Of a stretch of DNA of 64,000 nucleotides, positions 14,698 to 57,434 are shown piece after piece. The translations under genes and the position numbers were made by a program. Within the stretch, counting starts at the first letter, position 1. Each line of letters starts with the position of its first letter. The DNA comes from a virus: positions 1 to 64,000 of the IMG/VR virus record IMGVR_UViG_3300027704_000015, one strand, 5' to 3'. Under the pieces are notes generated by a model. The model was not told the DNA's origin. It ran no database searches and was given only the letters and a program-made list of their open reading frames with translations.

Positions 14698-17600
14698 ATG
14701 AAAAAGTTATTATTATTACTGGCACTATTGCCAACAATGTTATTAGCACAAAATAATAGCTGGCTTAAGCTTGACATACAGCTAGACCAATGGCCGGAGG
14801 AAAACTGCTGGGAGTTAAGAGAATTTACTACAGATACTTTAATATATGATGCCTGTGGAGACCCTTATTTCCCTAATGAATTTATAGAATTATATATTCC
14901 ATTACCAGCAGGTCAATATATCTTTAATTTTGTAGATTCATATGGTGATGGATTATCTACTGCAATTCCTTCATACGCTTTAGTTTCAAATGAATGTCAA
15001 GATACTCTATCCTATGTACATGGATTTGGTACCTCTTATAATGGAAACGATTCACTTGCATTAGCTAATGGATGGACAATACCAGGAATCATTACTCAAG
15101 GTTTTACAAGTGCAGCAGAGTTAATTGATACATTAACACTTGCACCTTGCGCTCCACCAACTACTTTTATACCTGGTTGTATGGACCCTATTGCAGAGAA
15201 TTATGACTCATTAGTAACCGTACCTCAATGGGGATATTCAGACCAATCTATTTGTACATATATTATAGGATGTACAGACCCATCAGCATTAAATTATGAT
15301 ACAGTAGCAACTTTAGCTGATGATGGTTTATGTATGTACCCACCATGTGGTGGCTTTGATACAATATCGGCTTCACAAACATGTATGGGTAATCAAACAA
15401 CATTAACATTTGAATGGGAAACATCTCTAACTGCATGTGATGTTGGTGAAATACATTATGGTTACGATTTATCAGCTGCACCATTTGTTCAAAGTCAATG
15501 GTTTCAAGGTGATGTTCCGTTAGGAGCTACACCTCCTACTACACTAGCATACACTATATTTGAATGTAGTTACTTTAATTATAACTGGAATGTTTTTGAA
15601 GCTAAAGCAGGTGGTAATTTCGTAACACAAGATATACCACACTTCTTCTTTGTTAAATTTGGCATTGCCGGTAATTTCACGTACAGTGATACAACATGGA
15701 TAACACCAGAACATTGTATTGTTGGATGTACAGACCCAACATCTAGTCAATATAACCCATTTGCAAATATAGATGATGGTAGTTGTCAAAATAGTGGTAC
15801 GACATGTGGCCCTGATTCCACTACAATTAACATTATACTAACTCCAGATACATATTCTGGTGAAACATCTTGGGAACTTATAGATTCTACAACTACACCT
15901 CCTACAATAATAGCTTCAAGTCCATTATATAGTGGATTAACAGGTATACCTACATCAACAATAGTATGTGTTGATAGTACAATGAACCTAGTATTTAATT
16001 TATATGATTCTTTTGGAGATGGAATGTGTGGTTCATGTTTTGGAGAGGCTGATGGTGAAGTATTGATATTAGATGAATCATGTGGTGATACATTGTTCCA
16101 CTTAACTTCACCTAATATGAATTTTGGTGTTGAACTTAGTGAATCATTTGGATTTCTTAATACATGTGGAATTAATGCTAGTGTATACGGTTGTACTGAC
16201 CCCGCATACGTTGAGTACGACGAATCATTTTTGTACGATGATGGTTCATGTTTAACATTAAACATTTATGGATGTACAGACTCTACTGCATTAAACTATG
16301 ACCCTAATGCAAATACACAAATAAATACACCATCATGTAATTATACATTAAGATTAACAGATGGTGCTGGCGATGGTTGGTTCGGTTCTTATATTGGGAT
16401 AGTACAGGGAGATTCATTATATGGTCCTTACACTTTTAATAATGGTTTCTATAATGATTTTAATATAAATTTAACAACAACCGAAAAAGCTAAAATATAT
16501 TTTTATACTCAAGGTAATTCATCAGGGACAGCAAGTCAATGTGGGTTTAAGTTAATTAATCCAGATGACGTTGTTACGTTTGAGGCTGGAACAAACCCAT
16601 GGACAGATGCTATCGTTCCATTTCCAAAAGTATATACAGCAGAACAAGATTGTGGTAATACTTGTTTACCGTCAGTTTTAGGGTGTATCGATTCATTTGC
16701 ATTTAATTATGATTCTTTAGCTAATACAACAGACAGCTCATGTTATTATAATCCAGGATGTACTGATGCTGCTTATTTAGAATATCATACTCAAGGATTT
16801 ATCGCTGATTTTAATAATGGTTCATGTTTATCATACGCTATATTTGGTTGTATGGATATGACAATGTTTAATTATGACCAATACGCGACAGTTCAATGGA
16901 CAACAGTATTAAATGATACAACTCCTTGTATTGCAAAAATACTTGGTTGTTTAGACCCAACTGCTTTTAATTACGACCCACTAGCAAATACAGAAAATTA
17001 TTCATGTGTCCCATTTATATATGGATGTATGGATGCAACACAATTCAATTATGATCCATCAGCGAATACTGATAACGGATCTTGTTTACCTTATATACTT
17101 GGTTGTACAGACTCAACAGCATTAAATTATGATGCTTTAGCTAATACTGATAACGGAACATGCATCCCTTTCTTATATGGATGTACAGACTCTTTAGCTT
17201 TAAATTATAACTCATTAGCGAATACAGATGATGGTTCTTGCATATCAACTATACTAGGTTGTACTGATGTTAGTGCTTTCAATTACGATTCACTAGCTAA
17301 TACTGATGATGGAACATGCGTTCCATTTATCTATGGATGTACAGATGCTTCACAGTTTAACTATAATGCTTTAGCTAATTCAGATGATGGATCATGTATA
17401 CCATTTATTTATGGTTGTACAGACCCCTCACAATTCAATTATAATGCTACTGCAAATACTGATAACGGATCCTGTATCCCATTTGTTTACGGATGTTTAG
17501 ATTCATTAGCATTTAATTTTAACCCACTAGCTAATACTGATAACGGATCATGTACACCAATAATACTTGGTTGCACAGATACCGCAGCAATCAATTATAA

Positions 17601-18894
17601 TCCTTTAGCAAATACAGAGGATGGTTCTTGTTTAGGTATTATATATGGATGTACTTCTCCAATAGCATTCAATTATGATTCAACTGCAAATTCAGATGAT
17701 GGTTCATGTATTCCTTTCATCTACGGTTGTATGGACAATACACAATTTAATTTCAATCCTTTAGCTAATTCAGATGATGGATCATGTATTCCAATCATTA
17801 ATGGATGTACTGACAACACTCAATTTAATTACAATCCATTAGCAAATACTGATAATGGATCATGTATTCCTTTTATCTTTGGATGTATGGATCCATTAGC
17901 ATTTAACTTTGATCCTCTAGCTAATACAGACAACAACGGATGTATAGCTGTAGTACTTGGATGTACTGATTCAACCTCAGTTACTTATGATCCTCTTGCA
18001 AATACGGATGATGGAAGTTGTATATCTCCATTGTATGGATGTACAGACTCAACGGCACTTAACTATAACAACTTAGCTAATGTAGATGACGGTTCATGTA
18101 TTGATATAGTTAATGGATGTACAGACCCATTAGCATTTAATTATAATTCATTGGCAAATGTAGATGACGGAACCTGTATTCCATTTATATATGGATGTAT
18201 TGATCCAACACAATTCAATTACGACATTACAGCTAATACTGATGATGGTTCATGTATTCCTTATATTTATGGGTGTATGGATATATTATCATTCAACTAC
18301 AATCCTTTAGCAAATACTGACAATGGATCATGTATAGCAATCATATTAGGATGCATGGATACAACAGCATTAAATTATGATATACTTGCTAATACAGAAT
18401 ATGTACCTTCTAATTGTATACTTCCTATATCAGGATGTACTGATGTTGCAGCTTACAATTACGATCCAATTGCTAACACTTCAGACTCTACAGCTTGTTT
18501 ATATGATGCAGGATGTTATGGAGGACCAGGAATGCCATATTGGTTAAACGATGGATGTTTTGCATGGGTAATCGATGTAGATGATTATTGCTGTACTACT
18601 GACTGGGACGCTTCATGTCAGTCAATGTATGATTACTGTCAACAAGGTTGGCCAACAGCAATACAAGATATATCAGCATTAGGTATTGTAGTGTATCCAA
18701 ACCCTACTAAAGATGTTATAACAATAGAAACAAGATTAGATATACAAGTTGAATTGTATGATATGACAGGTAAGAGAGTTATTAATGAATCTAACACTAA
18801 ACGATTAGACTTATCTAAATTGCCAAGTGGTATTTATAATATGTCAATACTTTACAATGATTCTAGATACAGTAAAAGGGTGATAAAACAATGA
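14698..18894 (+). CDS. Giant secreted repeat protein with T9SS C-terminal sorting domain
   Basis: 1398 aa. Signal peptide MKKLLLLLALLPTMLLAQ. The N-terminal half mixes DGYGDG-like beta domains (FVDSYGDGLSTA, LYDSFGDGMCGS, LTDGAGDGWFGS) with early copies of a GCTDxxAxNYxxxANxDDGSC motif. From about residue 750 to 1265 about 20 such copies follow in tandem with a 26-aa (78-nt) period; I count about 28 in all, each with two Cys and an Asp-rich turn. A Cys-rich cap follows (about 1275-1315). The end (VVYPNPTKDVITIE, YDMTGKRVI, LPSGIYNMSI, RVIKQ) is a type-A T9SS sorting domain. Expected: secreted and anchored on the host surface by its T9SS. Confidence 0.85.
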   Translation: MKKLLLLLALLPTMLLAQNNSWLKLDIQLDQWPEENCWELREFTTDTLIYDACGDPYFPNEFIELYIPLPAGQYIFNFVDSYGDGLSTAIPSYALVSNECQDTLSYVHGFGTSYNGNDSLALANGWTIPGIITQGFTSAAELIDTLTLAPCAPPTTFIPGCMDPIAENYDSLVTVPQWGYSDQSICTYIIGCTDPSALNYDTVATLADDGLCMYPPCGGFDTISASQTCMGNQTTLTFEWETSLTACDVGEIHYGYDLSAAPFVQSQWFQGDVPLGATPPTTLAYTIFECSYFNYNWNVFEAKAGGNFVTQDIPHFFFVKFGIAGNFTYSDTTWITPEHCIVGCTDPTSSQYNPFANIDDGSCQNSGTTCGPDSTTINIILTPDTYSGETSWELIDSTTTPPTIIASSPLYSGLTGIPTSTIVCVDSTMNLVFNLYDSFGDGMCGSCFGEADGEVLILDESCGDTLFHLTSPNMNFGVELSESFGFLNTCGINASVYGCTDPAYVEYDESFLYDDGSCLTLNIYGCTDSTALNYDPNANTQINTPSCNYTLRLTDGAGDGWFGSYIGIVQGDSLYGPYTFNNGFYNDFNINLTTTEKAKIYFYTQGNSSGTASQCGFKLINPDDVVTFEAGTNPWTDAIVPFPKVYTAEQDCGNTCLPSVLGCIDSFAFNYDSLANTTDSSCYYNPGCTDAAYLEYHTQGFIADFNNGSCLSYAIFGCMDMTMFNYDQYATVQWTTVLNDTTPCIAKILGCLDPTAFNYDPLANTENYSCVPFIYGCMDATQFNYDPSANTDNGSCLPYILGCTDSTALNYDALANTDNGTCIPFLYGCTDSLALNYNSLANTDDGSCISTILGCTDVSAFNYDSLANTDDGTCVPFIYGCTDASQFNYNALANSDDGSCIPFIYGCTDPSQFNYNATANTDNGSCIPFVYGCLDSLAFNFNPLANTDNGSCTPIILGCTDTAAINYNPLANTEDGSCLGIIYGCTSPIAFNYDSTANSDDGSCIPFIYGCMDNTQFNFNPLANSDDGSCIPIINGCTDNTQFNYNPLANTDNGSCIPFIFGCMDPLAFNFDPLANTDNNGCIAVVLGCTDSTSVTYDPLANTDDGSCISPLYGCTDSTALNYNNLANVDDGSCIDIVNGCTDPLAFNYNSLANVDDGTCIPFIYGCIDPTQFNYDITANTDDGSCIPYIYGCMDILSFNYNPLANTDNGSCIAIILGCMDTTALNYDILANTEYVPSNCILPISGCTDVAAYNYDPIANTSDSTACLYDAGCYGGPGMPYWLNDGCFAWVIDVDDYCCTTDWDASCQSMYDYCQQGWPTAIQDISALGIVVYPNPTKDVITIETRLDIQVELYDMTGKRVINESNTKRLDLSKLPSGIYNMSILYNDSRYSKRVIKQ
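16945..18500 (+). repeat. Tandem 78-nt coding repeats (GCTDxxAxNY...DDGSC)
   Basis: About 20 consecutive in-frame units, mostly 78 nt, within the secreted protein gene. Unit DNA is similar but not identical, so the array is not a very recent expansion. Repeat number could change by slippage or recombination. Confidence 0.85.
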
Positions 18895-43836: not shown

Positions 43837-45504
43837 ATGAAGATATTAGGATTTCAATCTGGTCACGACGTTTCATACTGTCTTTTAGAAGACGGTATAC
43901 CGGTTATACACGAGGAGTTAGAGCGATTCACGCGTGAAAAGGAACCCCTTGGTGATGGTTTAGAGTTCGCTATTAAGAGACTACCAGAAGATGTATTTAA
44001 CGATGTAGCGTGCTATGTACATGGTAACCCTGGAGGTAGATATGGTAAGTATAAAGAGGTATGTAATAAGTCTGAAGCTGAAGATAAAATGTTATCGCGA
44101 GTGGCTTCAGGAAAAAGTGATAACTTATGCATAGGTCACCACCAATCACATGCTGCTAATGCATTCTTTTCTAGTAATTTTGATAAAGCTATAATTTTTA
44201 CTCTAGATGGTAGTGGTATGGAGAAGAGTATCACAAGAGATTATGTATACGAAAATAAAAAGCCTACCACGTTTAATGGGTTCCAAAACTTCTCATGTGC
44301 ATTTACTGTATGGCTCGGTGAAGGTAATAAGATAACACCTATACGTCGAATAGATTCAGGGTTATTTACAGTAGGATCTTCATGGAAGTACTATACTAAA
44401 GAACTGTTTGGGTTATCTAGTGGTCATCCGCACGGATTTGCCGGTGGTACAGTTATGGCTATGGCAAGTGCTGGTGATGGTAGTAAGTACTATCTTGATT
44501 TTGCAAAAGCATTTATCATGGGTGGTGGAGGTCATAGTGCAGCTGTCAAAGCTAATGTTAAAAAATATTTACCTATAGTTGCAAGGAGTGAACAGGATAG
44601 ATTTGATGTAGCAGCTGCTCTTCAAATGGCTTCAGAGCAGGTTGTATATGAGACTATGGCACCATATGTACAACACTATAAAGAAGCAAACAATATCTGT
44701 CTAGCAGGAGGAGTAGCTTTAAATACAACAATGGTAGGTAAGATGTTCGATTGGTTTCCTAAATCAAATATATTTGTATGCCCAGTGCCTTACGATGGAG
44801 GGTTAAGTATTGGATCAGCTCAGTTTGTGTGGCATCACATATTAGGCAATCCTAGAGTAAAGTGGGATACTCACCCATCACCATTTTTAGGTATGGAGTA
44901 TAGTAAACAAGATATATTAAATCATCTAGAAAAATCATCAGCCGAAGTAGTATTTAAAACAGTTACTGATGATGATGTAATTGAATTACTGGATCAACAA
45001 AATATTATATCTTTATTTCAAGGTGGAGCGGAAAGTGGTCGTAGAGCACTAGGTAATAGAAGTATAGTAGCTGATCCAAGGAGCTCGGATATGAAAGGTA
45101 AAATTAACGAAAAAGTTAAACACCGGCAGTGGTACAGACCATTTGCTCCTGCAATATTAAGAGAAGATGTTAAAGATTGGTTTGAAAAAGATATCGATAG
45201 CCCGTATATGAGTTTTATAGTTAAGTTTAAAGAGAGTGTAGTAGATAAGGTACCAGCAGTAGTGCACCTTAACGGCACAGGTAGGCTTCAGACATTAACT
45301 GAGAAAGGAAATGGTTGGTTTTATAACTTTGTAAAAAAGTGGAAAGCTAAGTCAGGTGTACCTATCTTATTAAATACCAGTTTTAATGATAGAGAGCCTA
45401 TAGTTGAAACGCCAAGTCATGCAATCAATTGCTTTATAGGTACAGATATAGATTACCTTTATTTTAGTGACTGCAAAATACTAGTAGAGAAAAAACATAA
45501 ATAA
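43837..45504 (+). CDS. Carbamoyltransferase (NodU/TobZ family)
   Basis: 555 aa, full length for the family. N-terminal ASKHA-like part: GHDVSYCLLEDGIPVIHEEL, GHHQSHAANAFF (metal-binding His), IIFTLDGSG, LAGGVALNTTM. C-terminal YrdC-like half: ALGNRSIVADPRSSDMK, RPFAPAIL and VPILLNTSFNDREPI. Family activity is transfer of carbamoyl from carbamoyl phosphate to a sugar or antibiotic hydroxyl, via carbamoyl adenylate. In phages it may modify glycans or hypermodified DNA bases; the target is unknown. Confidence 0.92.
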   Translation: MKILGFQSGHDVSYCLLEDGIPVIHEELERFTREKEPLGDGLEFAIKRLPEDVFNDVACYVHGNPGGRYGKYKEVCNKSEAEDKMLSRVASGKSDNLCIGHHQSHAANAFFSSNFDKAIIFTLDGSGMEKSITRDYVYENKKPTTFNGFQNFSCAFTVWLGEGNKITPIRRIDSGLFTVGSSWKYYTKELFGLSSGHPHGFAGGTVMAMASAGDGSKYYLDFAKAFIMGGGGHSAAVKANVKKYLPIVARSEQDRFDVAAALQMASEQVVYETMAPYVQHYKEANNICLAGGVALNTTMVGKMFDWFPKSNIFVCPVPYDGGLSIGSAQFVWHHILGNPRVKWDTHPSPFLGMEYSKQDILNHLEKSSAEVVFKTVTDDDVIELLDQQNIISLFQGGAESGRRALGNRSIVADPRSSDMKGKINEKVKHRQWYRPFAPAILREDVKDWFEKDIDSPYMSFIVKFKESVVDKVPAVVHLNGTGRLQTLTEKGNGWFYNFVKKWKAKSGVPILLNTSFNDREPIVETPSHAINCFIGTDIDYLYFSDCKILVEKKHK

Positions 45505-54428: not shown

Positions 54429-54497
54429 ATGATACAACTTATTACGATACAAAGATTTATGTTACCTAGAACTGCACACTGTAAAGGTGGATGTTAG
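54429..54497 (+). CDS. Possible 22-aa peptide
   Basis: ATG at 54429 after GGGAATAAT; MIQLITIQRFMLPRTAHCKG then GC and a TAG. Fills the gap before the next gene and overlaps it by 7 nt. Coding is uncertain. Confidence 0.25.
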   Translation: MIQLITIQRFMLPRTAHCKGGC

Positions 54498-54745
54498 CTA
54501 TGGATAGCTATACTGATAATTACGATACATTTAGTGATGATGATGAATTACTAAACGCAGCTATTAGTAATACATATGAATATTTAGTTAGTGAGCTAGA
54601 GATATCTGAACTTCCAGCTGGTACATGGATGCTTAAGCAACCAAGGCGAGTTGCAACTATAGATCAGCTTATAGAGTACTTTACAGGAACAGAAGAGTAT
54701 GAGAAGTGTGCTGAACTAGTAAAGATAAAACAAACAATAAATTGA
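54491..54745 (+). CDS. EEYEKCAE-motif protein, paralogue 3
   Basis: 84 aa; an alternative start at 54500 gives MDSYTDNYDTFS. C-terminus LIEYFTGTEEYEKCAELVKI matches the genes at 45506 and 50909. Its stop directly precedes the tmRNA gene. Confidence 0.6.
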   Translation: MLAMDSYTDNYDTFSDDDELLNAAISNTYEYLVSELEISELPAGTWMLKQPRRVATIDQLIEYFTGTEEYEKCAELVKIKQTIN

Positions 54746-54808
54746 CCGCTAGTACTTTTATTAGCTGCTCAAATGGACGAGGGTTCGACTCCCTCCATCT
54801 CCACAACA

Positions 54809-54860
54809 ATTATATGTGAAAACATATAATACAATAAATTACATATAAAGTATATGTAAT
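54809..54860 (+). other. Two perfect hairpins in the tmRNA intervening segment
   Basis: ATTATATGT-GAAA-ACATATAAT (54809-54830, 9 bp) and ATTACATATA-AAG-TATATGTAAT (54838-54860, 10 bp). In permuted tmRNAs this segment is removed; the hairpins could guide cutting. Confidence 0.6.
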
Positions 54861-54929
54861 TACATATAATATGGGGATGACTTGGATATTGACATTGAGA
54901 TAAGGATTTAAGGAAGGTCACGCATAACA

Positions 54930-54965
54930 GGCGAACATGTTGAAATGGCAATGGCGGCTTAATAA
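54930..54965 (+). other. tmRNA tag reading frame
   Basis: Ten codons from GGC to GCT, then TAATAA. Peptide GEHVEMAMAA: Gly-Glu start and Ala-Met-Ala-Ala end, like the Bacteroidetes tags I recall (GExxYALAA or GExxYAMAA), with an extended middle. Confidence 0.75.
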
Positions 54966-55040
54966 AGTCCCCAGAACCGAACGGCGTTAACAGGGCAAGT
55001 CGTATAAGCCCGGTGGTGGTGGACCTATAAGGTATAAATT

Positions 55041-55733
55041 ATGACAATGATGAGTAGACCAATAATAAAGAAAAAGATTAAGCGTAACAATGTTGTGTAT
55101 AATCTTGAGTTATGGAATACGATAGATGATGATTTTATACCAAATGTATCAGAGCCACCCCAATTCCGAAAAGATTTCTTTAATGATGTAGCTATGGATG
55201 GTAAATGGCCTGACTCAACAGAGTATCAAGAGAGGTTCGATGATTGGTTTGATAATCTATCTAAAGACAAGCAAATTCAATATGCTAGAGCTATTGATGA
55301 GTCTAATAGGGTTATAATATTAATGGTGTGGGAGCAAGTTAATAAATTAGATAAGCATGAGTTGTTCAATAATAACATCAGGCAGTTTAGTATCTGGTTC
55401 TCAGGTTTGGATCCAGCTGATATTGACTTCTACATGACACGTATAATGTCTAAACGTCGTTTGATGCCTGCTGAGTTTAGAAGTGATAGCCCTGAGTTAT
55501 TATCTGCTGAAGAGATAACTAACGCGTTACAAGGTGTATATGATAGTATAAATGATGATTTAATTCGAGCAACAACTATTAACGGTCTACTGTGTATTAG
55601 CTGTACTGATGAATCAAGATTAGCTAAAGTAAAAAAGCATATGATAATGCATGGTAGTATATTACGTGATTATCGCAAGAAAGAAAACATCAGCGGTAAT
55701 ATGATTTATACATATATATTTTCTAAACCGTAA
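55041..55733 (+). CDS. Phage protein of unknown function
   Basis: 230 aa. Acidic, helical (FDDWFDNLSKDKQIQYARAI, IDFYMTRIMSKRRLMPAEFR) with a C-terminal Cys pair (LLCISCTDES). Starts 20 nt after the tmRNA end. Not recognised. Confidence 0.55.
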   Translation: MTMMSRPIIKKKIKRNNVVYNLELWNTIDDDFIPNVSEPPQFRKDFFNDVAMDGKWPDSTEYQERFDDWFDNLSKDKQIQYARAIDESNRVIILMVWEQVNKLDKHELFNNNIRQFSIWFSGLDPADIDFYMTRIMSKRRLMPAEFRSDSPELLSAEEITNALQGVYDSINDDLIRATTINGLLCISCTDESRLAKVKKHMIMHGSILRDYRKKENISGNMIYTYIFSKP

Positions 55734-55799: not shown

Positions 55800-56339
55800 A
55801 TGAAGCAACTATTAATTTTACTATGTATGGCTACATCGTTATACGCAATATCGCAGACAACTATAAATCCAGACACTGTATGTTCTGGTGCAACAGCGGA
55901 GCAGTACTTTGTAACTAACACACCTACATCAACCTATCAATGGACTGTTAACGGAGGTGGTAGTTCTATACAGACAGGTCAGGGTACTAATCTAATAACA
56001 GTTGACTGGGGTACAGTTGCAGGGTTATACTCTAATGCGGTCGAAGTTGTAGAGTCAAACGCTGCAGGATGCCCTGGTTTGCCTATATTATTAGATGTAT
56101 TTATATTAAGTCTATCAAGTAATCTCATAGGACCTTTCTGTCCAGGTGATCCGTCTGCATCGTTAGTTGGTAATCCGATCGGTGGAACTTGGTCAGGCAC
56201 AGGAGTAACAGGAAATAATTTTGATCCTGCATCTGGTATAGGAAATTATATACTAACTTACTCATTAGCGGGTTGTACAACTACAATAAATGTTATTGTT
56301 AATAGTGGTCCAATTACTGGACCTATTCAACACTTTTAA
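55800..56339 (+). CDS. Exported PKD/SprB-like adhesin fragment
   Basis: 179 aa. Signal peptide MKQLLILLCMATSLYAISQ. Sequence INPDTVCSGATAEQYFVTNT, YQWTVNGGG, LITVDWG matches the Ig/PKD-like modules of large Bacteroidetes surface proteins; a second Cys-module (GPFCPGDPSASLVGNPIGGT) follows. It has no sorting domain, but the next gene does. Likely secreted and part of a surface complex. Confidence 0.7.
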   Translation: MKQLLILLCMATSLYAISQTTINPDTVCSGATAEQYFVTNTPTSTYQWTVNGGGSSIQTGQGTNLITVDWGTVAGLYSNAVEVVESNAAGCPGLPILLDVFILSLSSNLIGPFCPGDPSASLVGNPIGGTWSGTGVTGNNFDPASGIGNYILTYSLAGCTTTINVIVNSGPITGPIQHF

Positions 56340-56340
56340 T

Positions 56341-56871
56341 ATGAGATGGTTAGTAATATTATTACTACCTTTTCAGTTATTAGCTCAAGAAACTTATAAT
56401 GATTGCGCAACTATTGAACCTCAATCATATCAAGTAAGCTATGAAGTTGATAAGATATACTACTGGTCAATCTCTAACGGAGAGGTAGTATCTACGTTTG
56501 ACAATACAATAACAGTACAATGGCCTGATACTGCAGGAGAGTACCTCATTTCAGTATATACTACTAGATTTGGATGTGAAGGAGATACCTCTAGCTATCA
56601 AGTGGTTATAAATGAATGTCCATACGCTACATTATTCTTTCCGAGCTCATTTACACCAAACAAGGATGGAATTAATGAAACATACTTTATAGGAGGTAAA
56701 TCAGCTGATAATATTGAGTATATTACGATATATAACAGGTGGGGTAATAGGGTATTTGAAGCTGATGGAAATATGCCATGGACGGGTGATGAATGTGCGG
56801 CTGGCGTTTATGTTGTTAGTGTATTTGTTAATAATAATAGGTTTACAAGAAAGGTTACTTTAATACGATGA
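56341..56871 (+). CDS. Exported protein with T9SS type-B (CHU_C) sorting domain
   Basis: 176 aa from ATG 56341 (MRWLVILLLPFQLLAQ signal). One PKD-like module (YYWSISNGEVVSTFDNTITV), then the gliding-motility-associated C-terminal domain: LFFPSSFTPNKDGINETYFI, ITIYNRWGNRVFEA, WTGDECAAGVYVVSV, RKVTLIR. This is the type-B T9SS signal. The protein is short compared with host CHU_C proteins. Starts right after its partner and overlaps the next gene by 4 nt. Confidence 0.85.
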   Translation: MRWLVILLLPFQLLAQETYNDCATIEPQSYQVSYEVDKIYYWSISNGEVVSTFDNTITVQWPDTAGEYLISVYTTRFGCEGDTSSYQVVINECPYATLFFPSSFTPNKDGINETYFIGGKSADNIEYITIYNRWGNRVFEADGNMPWTGDECAAGVYVVSVFVNNNRFTRKVTLIR

Positions 56872-57434
56872 AAAAGTTACTATATATAATATGTTTATTG
56901 ATTAGTTTTAACGCAGGCGCTCAATGTATAACTGGTCAGACTTCTACTACTGTTCCTGCAGGACCTTATCAACCAGGGGATGTTGTTACTGTAACATATA
57001 CTTTAAATAATTTTACAGGAATATTCATTAATTGGATTCATGCATTTCAGATAAATTTATCCCCAGCTTGGATTAATTTAACACCTATAACCACTCCACT
57101 TAATCCAGCAGGATCTGCAGGGAATTGGGTATGGGATTTGCAGCATACATTTATAGGAGGATTGAACTTTGGACCAGGGTGGAGGTTTGATAATACAGGT
57201 AATGTAGATTGGGGAACTACCTCCACAGGTCCGTTCACAGTGAGTTTTACCGTTGAGGTGGGTCCAACATGTACCCCAGATGTTTTAACTATTGATATGC
57301 TAGTAATAGATGATTGCACAACTGGTGGTTGGACGGGAGGTGGAGGAGCTTGCTGTACTGATCCAGCATTTCAGGTATATAATGGAATTATACAAGTACC
57401 ACCTATTAATACATCACTAATAAACCATAACTAA
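56868..57434 (+). CDS. Exported beta-rich protein
   Basis: 188 aa. Signal peptide MKKLLYIICLLISFNAGAQ. Beta-sandwich-like (PYQPGDVVTVTYTLNNFTGI, FTVSFTVEVGPTC) and a Cys/Gly-rich end (CTTGGWTGGGGACCTDPAF). Third gene of an exported-protein operon. May be a ligand or cargo for the type-B protein before it. Confidence 0.65.
   Translation: MKKLLYIICLLISFNAGAQCITGQTSTTVPAGPYQPGDVVTVTYTLNNFTGIFINWIHAFQINLSPAWINLTPITTPLNPAGSAGNWVWDLQHTFIGGLNFGPGWRFDNTGNVDWGTTSTGPFTVSFTVEVGPTCTPDVLTIDMLVIDDCTTGGWTGGGGACCTDPAFQVYNGIIQVPPINTSLINHN

Follow-up and report, generated by a model that had tools for sequence, protein, structure and literature searches.

The 64,000-nucleotide stretch of DNA analysed here (the window), part of a virus record of 79,962 bases, most probably carries a functional circularly permuted (two-piece) tmRNA gene of a contractile-tail phage that infects a member of the Bacteroidota with a type IX secretion system. 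We put the probability of this reading at roughly 0.82, a figure that covers the functional two-piece tmRNA, whereas its independent origin carries a separate estimate, given below in words. tmRNA is the RNA that rescues stuck ribosomes, and its two-piece form is regarded as having been invented separately a few times in bacteria. What appears new is the lineage of the present gene, which is Bacteroidota-like and, judged by the characters described below, unlike any known two-piece lineage.

Two programs recognize the gene. The only RNA gene that ARAGORN reports for the window is a permuted tmRNA at 54711–55053 with the tag GEHVEMAMAA and a double stop, and the Rfam scan places a match to the permuted tmRNA family RF04321 at 54754–54962. 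This match scores 55.7 bits, above the curated cut-off (gathering score 47; E = 3.9e-8 over 64 kb and 4227 families); relatives score 50–73 bits. Both checks bear out an earlier note on this DNA, which had called the locus a permuted tmRNA from its letters. ARAGORN failed on related genes in six contigs (L006, L007, L017, L028, L042, and L051), and therefore some members lie at the margin of its model. The gene, at about 54746–55020 on the plus strand, occupies the gap between the co-directional reading frames 54491–54745 and 55041–55733. Highly similar genes are present on many independent metagenome contigs and the gene is therefore no assembly artefact; together with the covariation described below, these contigs rule out both artefact and chance.

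The 3′ half of the tRNA-like domain is encoded upstream of the 5′ half, as the earlier note had read it: the T arm and 3′ acceptor strand (54775–54803) precede the 5′ acceptor strand (54873–54879). All features lie on the plus strand, and both pieces are delimited by ARAGORN, RF04321, and the alignment of relatives. The acceptor piece (54750–54803, 5′ end approximate) holds the P2b strand CUUUUAU (54755–54761, partner 54906–54912) and the P2a strand CUCAA (54768–54772, partner 54895–54899), followed by the T stem-loop GAGGG UUCGACU CCCUC (54779–54795), the 3′ acceptor strand CAUCUCC (54796–54802), and the discriminator A54803. An intervening segment of 69 nt (54804–54872), which is expected to be removed, leads to the coding piece (54873–55020, 3′ end approximate). 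This piece opens with the 5′ acceptor strand GGGGAUG and continues through the D region (54880–54894), the partner P2 strands (54895–54912), the CAUAACA-GGC resume site, the tag frame, and an H-type pseudoknot (54981–55011). In the sequence and in the alignment of relatives the acceptor stem is a complete helix of 7 bp, GGGGAUG/CAUCUCC, in which U70 faces G3, just as had been claimed. A CCA is encoded after A54803 neither in the window nor in any other clade sequence (11 compared).

Relatives were gathered by scanning viral contigs with a permuted-gene pattern and with the neighbouring protein, and the comparison set consists of 11 distinct sequences from viral contigs, all in the same clade as the window gene, which is one of them. 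Pairing was counted on an alignment anchored by hand; MAFFT aligns the pseudoknot poorly. Among these sequences, which are kin and whose paired cells are not independent events, pairing is found in 77/77 cells of the acceptor stem, 55/55 of the T stem, 55/55 of P2a, 69/77 of P2b, 55/55 of pseudoknot stem 1 (54981–54985/54999–55003), and 44/44 of stem 2 (54993–54996/55008–55011). Every helix is kept although 10 base pairs have changed on both sides: pair 5 of the acceptor stem (A-U/G-C), pair 2 of the T stem (A-U/C-G), two pairs in P2a, three in P2b (one being C-G to G-U), and three in the pseudoknot (one in stem 1, two in stem 2). Six of the 10 belong to the helices between the acceptor and coding pieces (acceptor stem and P2) and therefore give direct comparative support for the permuted reading. 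The P2 pairing, previously described as plausible, is thus real, with double changes in both of its helices, and the covarying pseudoknot 3′ of the tag is an addition to what the earlier note had described. The architecture, covariation, conservation, and phage location of the gene can all be read from the sequences themselves.

The tag frame (54930–54965) encodes GEHVEMAMAA and ends, as previously read, in MAMAA and a double stop. Upstream of it, CAUAACA (54923–54929) has U at −5 and A at −4 (54925–54926), the equivalents of U85 and A86, which set the reading frame of Escherichia coli tmRNA (PMC2481249). Changes in the tags of relatives are synonymous (GCA/GCG, GCG/GCT, and GCT/GCC), the first stop goes from TAA to TGA with the second retained, and amino-acid replacements are limited to H/Q, E/A, and M/L. 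The frame, the AA end, and the double stop are kept while third positions vary; by this comparative evidence, the tag is under selection. It seems very improbable that the locus is a decayed or decoy tmRNA, kept for another reason such as service as an RNA sponge after tagging was lost. Such a relic would accommodate the two U-U mismatches that the window has in P2b and the departure of the AMAA end from the host ALAA, but the identity elements and compensatory changes are all kept over divergent relatives, the tag frame and double stop are conserved amid synonymous change, and the position of the gene is conserved as well.

The intervening segment contains two AT-rich hairpins (54809–54830 and 54838–54860; fold z = −4.1). 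A search of the 80-kb genome for exact 9-bp hairpins has four hits, three of them within this segment. In relatives its length is 18 or 68–70 nt, and it behaves as an exchangeable cassette in five contigs. L030 and L048 have identical coding pieces and acceptor pieces one base apart, with a long segment in one and a short segment in the other. Conversely, the segments of L030 and L040 are the same but for the last base and those of L012 and L021 are common to both, while the bodies differ in each pair. The segment is therefore replaceable, as expected if it is discarded. That it has a role in processing is a guess on our part. We rejected the idea that it is a set of promoters, as a scan for sigma-70-type promoters, the one type covered, gave results below shuffled expectation, and the hairpin motifs have no repeats elsewhere in the genome.

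The phage origin of the permuted tmRNA is clear. The gene lies in a virus record among phage genes, that record encodes a baseplate wedge protein, and the gene holds the same position in related viral contigs even though the downstream protein falls to about 27% identity, all of which agrees with the previous description of the gene as phage-borne. No SmpB gene was found in the phage record. The type IX secretion system belongs to Bacteroidota, and the phage encodes proteins with apparent signal peptides that carry type IX secretion sorting domains (Por_Secre_tail, E = 2.7e-13; CHU_C, E = 1.8e-11). From these domains we infer that the host is probably a member of the Bacteroidota. Among named phages, Microcystis phage Mel-JY01 has the most similar baseplate wedge protein (45%), followed by Flavobacterium phage immuto (39%), and the window contig has no host record, so that a functional permuted tmRNA in a phage with a host outside Bacteroidota has to be considered. 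We regard such a host as improbable given the sorting domains, and another conserved phage protein is nearest to Flavobacterium phage immuto (45%).

Signal-peptide proteins with Por_Secre_tail, PKD_6, CHU_C, or PKD domains are encoded at 14698–18894, 55800–56339, about 56340–56871, and 56868–57434. Two of these sorting- or PKD-domain genes sit just downstream of the tmRNA, and the genes at 55800 and 56340 are conserved neighbours in L008 and L029. Export of phage proteins through the type IX system of the host would be unusual. The window also has auxiliary genes for a CobS-like AAA ATPase of a porphyrin-biosynthesis phage family (35528–36709) and a Nol-like carbamoyltransferase (43837–45504).

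The earlier note stated that Bacteroidetes hosts use a one-piece tmRNA, and the genomes agree: one-piece tmRNA is over the cut-off in 362/395 sampled Bacteroidota genomes and permuted tmRNA in a single one (G240), where it is prophage-borne. The permuted gene of G240 lies on a 1.6-Mb contig amid phage genes for rIIA, rIIB, a primase, a DnaB-like helicase, a DNA polymerase, and an integrase, and therefore in an integrated phage; the one-piece gene is located elsewhere in the same genome. Among 396 genomes of its order, G240 alone has an RF04321 match over the cut-off. In a second order this holds for 1/393 genomes (G785), which likewise has a one-piece gene and whose permuted gene is found on a 109-kb phage-like contig with endolysin and ParB genes. 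In the genomes of 84,980 species there was no match to the permuted UUGA pattern with an intervening segment of 45–75 nt. We thus reject a host-chromosomal origin of the permuted form, since this pattern, within that range of segment lengths, is without a match in any of these species and the RF04321 matches in the sampled Bacteroidota genomes are in prophage or phage-like sequence.

Permuted tmRNA is established in α- and β-proteobacteria, cyanobacteria, and mitochondria, and an advantage of the two-piece form has been put forward to explain why it was invented more than once (PMC3978253, PMC11915505). In a 2022 survey, 53 of 133 unique phage tmRNAs were two-piece, mostly from marine or aquatic phages, and permuted tmRNA is common in marine phages of α-proteobacteria (PMC9004378). 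In the literature covered by our partial search, permuted tmRNA is not described as such for phages of Bacteroidota. The present gene shares with the α-/β-proteobacterial and cyanobacterial family RF04321 (PMC11915505) the gene order, the tRNA domain, the intervening segment, and a tag on the second piece. It differs in its modest score, in having UUGA instead of UUCGA and a Gly instead of an Ala resume codon, in lacking an encoded CCA, and in the absence of much of the coding piece of the model. The two-piece tmRNA of marine phages such as Methylophilales phage Melnitz and the pelagimyophages is likewise phage-borne and permuted, but the Melnitz gene has α-proteobacterial kin and is linked to a glutamine riboswitch (PMC9004378), whereas the present gene is Bacteroidota-like. 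The Rfam scan found no riboswitch in the 64,000-nt window.

CrAss-like phages (Suoliviridae: cr10_1, cr50_1, cr60_1, cr125_1, and cr130_1), which are viruses of Bacteroidota, also have tmRNAs that ARAGORN reads as permuted, with a UUUGAC D-loop and, in most, a G resume codon as in the window; their records bear deposited “SsrA” annotations. These genes differ from the present one in their tags (GNNFVTDYT.. and others), in an intervening segment of about 100–210 nt, and in belonging to other phages. A claim to be the first of its kind is thus not open to the present gene, two-piece phage tmRNAs having been published (PMC9004378) and crAss-like phage tmRNAs being permuted. In crAss-like phages we also observed RAGATH-9, RAGATH-22, and RAGATH-20 RNAs (L002 123–301, L003 854–1020, L197 663–764, and L200 782–950) at most about 1.3 kb upstream of the permuted tmRNA, the one in L200 directly abutting it. 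An unannotated permuted tmRNA with the tag ANDNVFGAKTLAA is found in Acinetobacter phage BUCT628 (Obolenskvirus; L004 1442–1775). Cellulophaga phages phi38:1 and Calle were considered as a cultured permuted example and rejected, as their tmRNA is one-piece. This tmRNA-like gene (L195 871–1230 and L196 871–1230, from Calle_1 and phi38:1) has an odd 22-aa tag and is without annotation in phi38:1. Bacteroidota phages therefore hold both gene forms.

Several characters connect the present gene with the one-piece tmRNA of Bacteroidota (RF00023), which has the same UUGA D-loop, AUAAC-GGC-GAA resume site, and GE tag start. The one-piece genes differ in being about 350–425 nt long and in their tag, GENNYALAA, while the present gene is permuted and shorter, has one recognized pseudoknot, and bears a tag ending in AMAA. 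In comparison with one-piece genes, its D region is of the Bacteroidota type (UUGAC, not UUCGAC). UUGA is found in 64/67 one-piece tmRNAs of a Bacteroidota-enriched sample but in 1/19 α-like permuted phage genes from viral contigs gathered with no D-loop constraint, 18/19 of which have C, and the Rfam permuted consensus is UUCGAC; UUGA is common to the window clade, the fully read crAss-like genes, G240, and G785. Where the α, β, and cyanobacterial permuted lineages have a UUCGAC D-loop and an Ala resume codon, the window has UUGAC and GGC. The resume context CAUAAC-GGC-GAA is the same as in Bacteroidota one-piece genes, although this comparison is biased, the one-piece set having been gathered by its GE tag. 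Taken together, the D-loop and resume site match one-piece Bacteroidota genes, which upholds the Bacteroidetes-like origin suggested earlier.

Over the 65 aligned columns of the window, mean identity is 0.76 to Bacteroidota one-piece genes and 0.77 to α-like permuted genes; only the D-loop and resume part, which includes the biased resume-site comparison, discriminates between them (0.73 vs 0.58). In the tree of these columns (tRNA domain and resume site), the window clade lies near Bacteroidota one-piece genes, with weak deeper forks, and the α-like permuted genes form a separate group (100/98), which includes L046, a sequence with a doubtful resume site. The AU test rejects neither a single clade of all permuted genes (p = 0.26) nor a clade of the window and crAss-like genes (p = 0.33), with low power in both cases from 65 alignable columns. 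The gene could therefore have come from one of the known permuted lineages, such as the α-proteobacterial one as in pelagiphages, and have converged on or recombined with Bacteroidota features, in which case the tmRNA would be functional and its permutation not independent. The unrejected single clade fits such an acquisition, as does the abundance of permuted tmRNA in marine phages of α-proteobacteria (PMC9004378), and the common GGGGAUG acceptor stem lifts the identity to α-like genes to the one-piece level. We nevertheless consider it unlikely: in D-loop base and resume codon the gene follows the one-piece genes of Bacteroidota and not the α-like set, the α-like permuted genes group apart, and those shown encode CCA whereas the window clade does not.

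Because the D-loop and resume site fit one-piece Bacteroidota genes and the permuted genes in the sampled Bacteroidota genomes lie in a prophage or on a phage-like contig, we rather favor a separate permutation, which would have taken place in phages, from a Bacteroidota one-piece gene, and apart from the α-proteobacterial, β-proteobacterial, and cyanobacterial ones. The independent form envisaged in the earlier note is accordingly favored by these characters, while the part of the claim that would set aside a single origin is not borne out by the AU test.

For processing, charging, and tagging we infer the following course. A single precursor would be transcribed with the acceptor piece leading, and host tRNA-processing enzymes would excise the intervening segment, rich in hairpins, and mature the termini, CCA being added by the host. 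The two pieces would be held together by the acceptor stem and P2, and the two-piece RNA would be charged with alanine via G3-U70. Using the SmpB of the host, it would enter stalled ribosomes, where the tag GEHVEMAMAA would be added.

The endings of such phage tags are AMAA, RMAA, KVAA, KIAA, RLAA, or similar, and host tags in our sample end almost always in YALAA. One may ask, given this variability, whether tagged proteins meet a different, phage-directed fate. The joint proposal, to which we would give an even chance, is that Bacteroidota phages made a further independent permuted tmRNA from the one-piece gene of their hosts, with the host gene unchanged alongside, that the tag diversified from a near-invariant ALAA, and that trans-translation during infection proceeds via a phage-specified and possibly differently degraded tag. 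If the permuted form is of viral origin and the hosts have remained one-piece, this would speak for an advantage of the split form in its own right, and one-piece and two-piece tmRNA could then be compared within one infected cell and in the same phylum.
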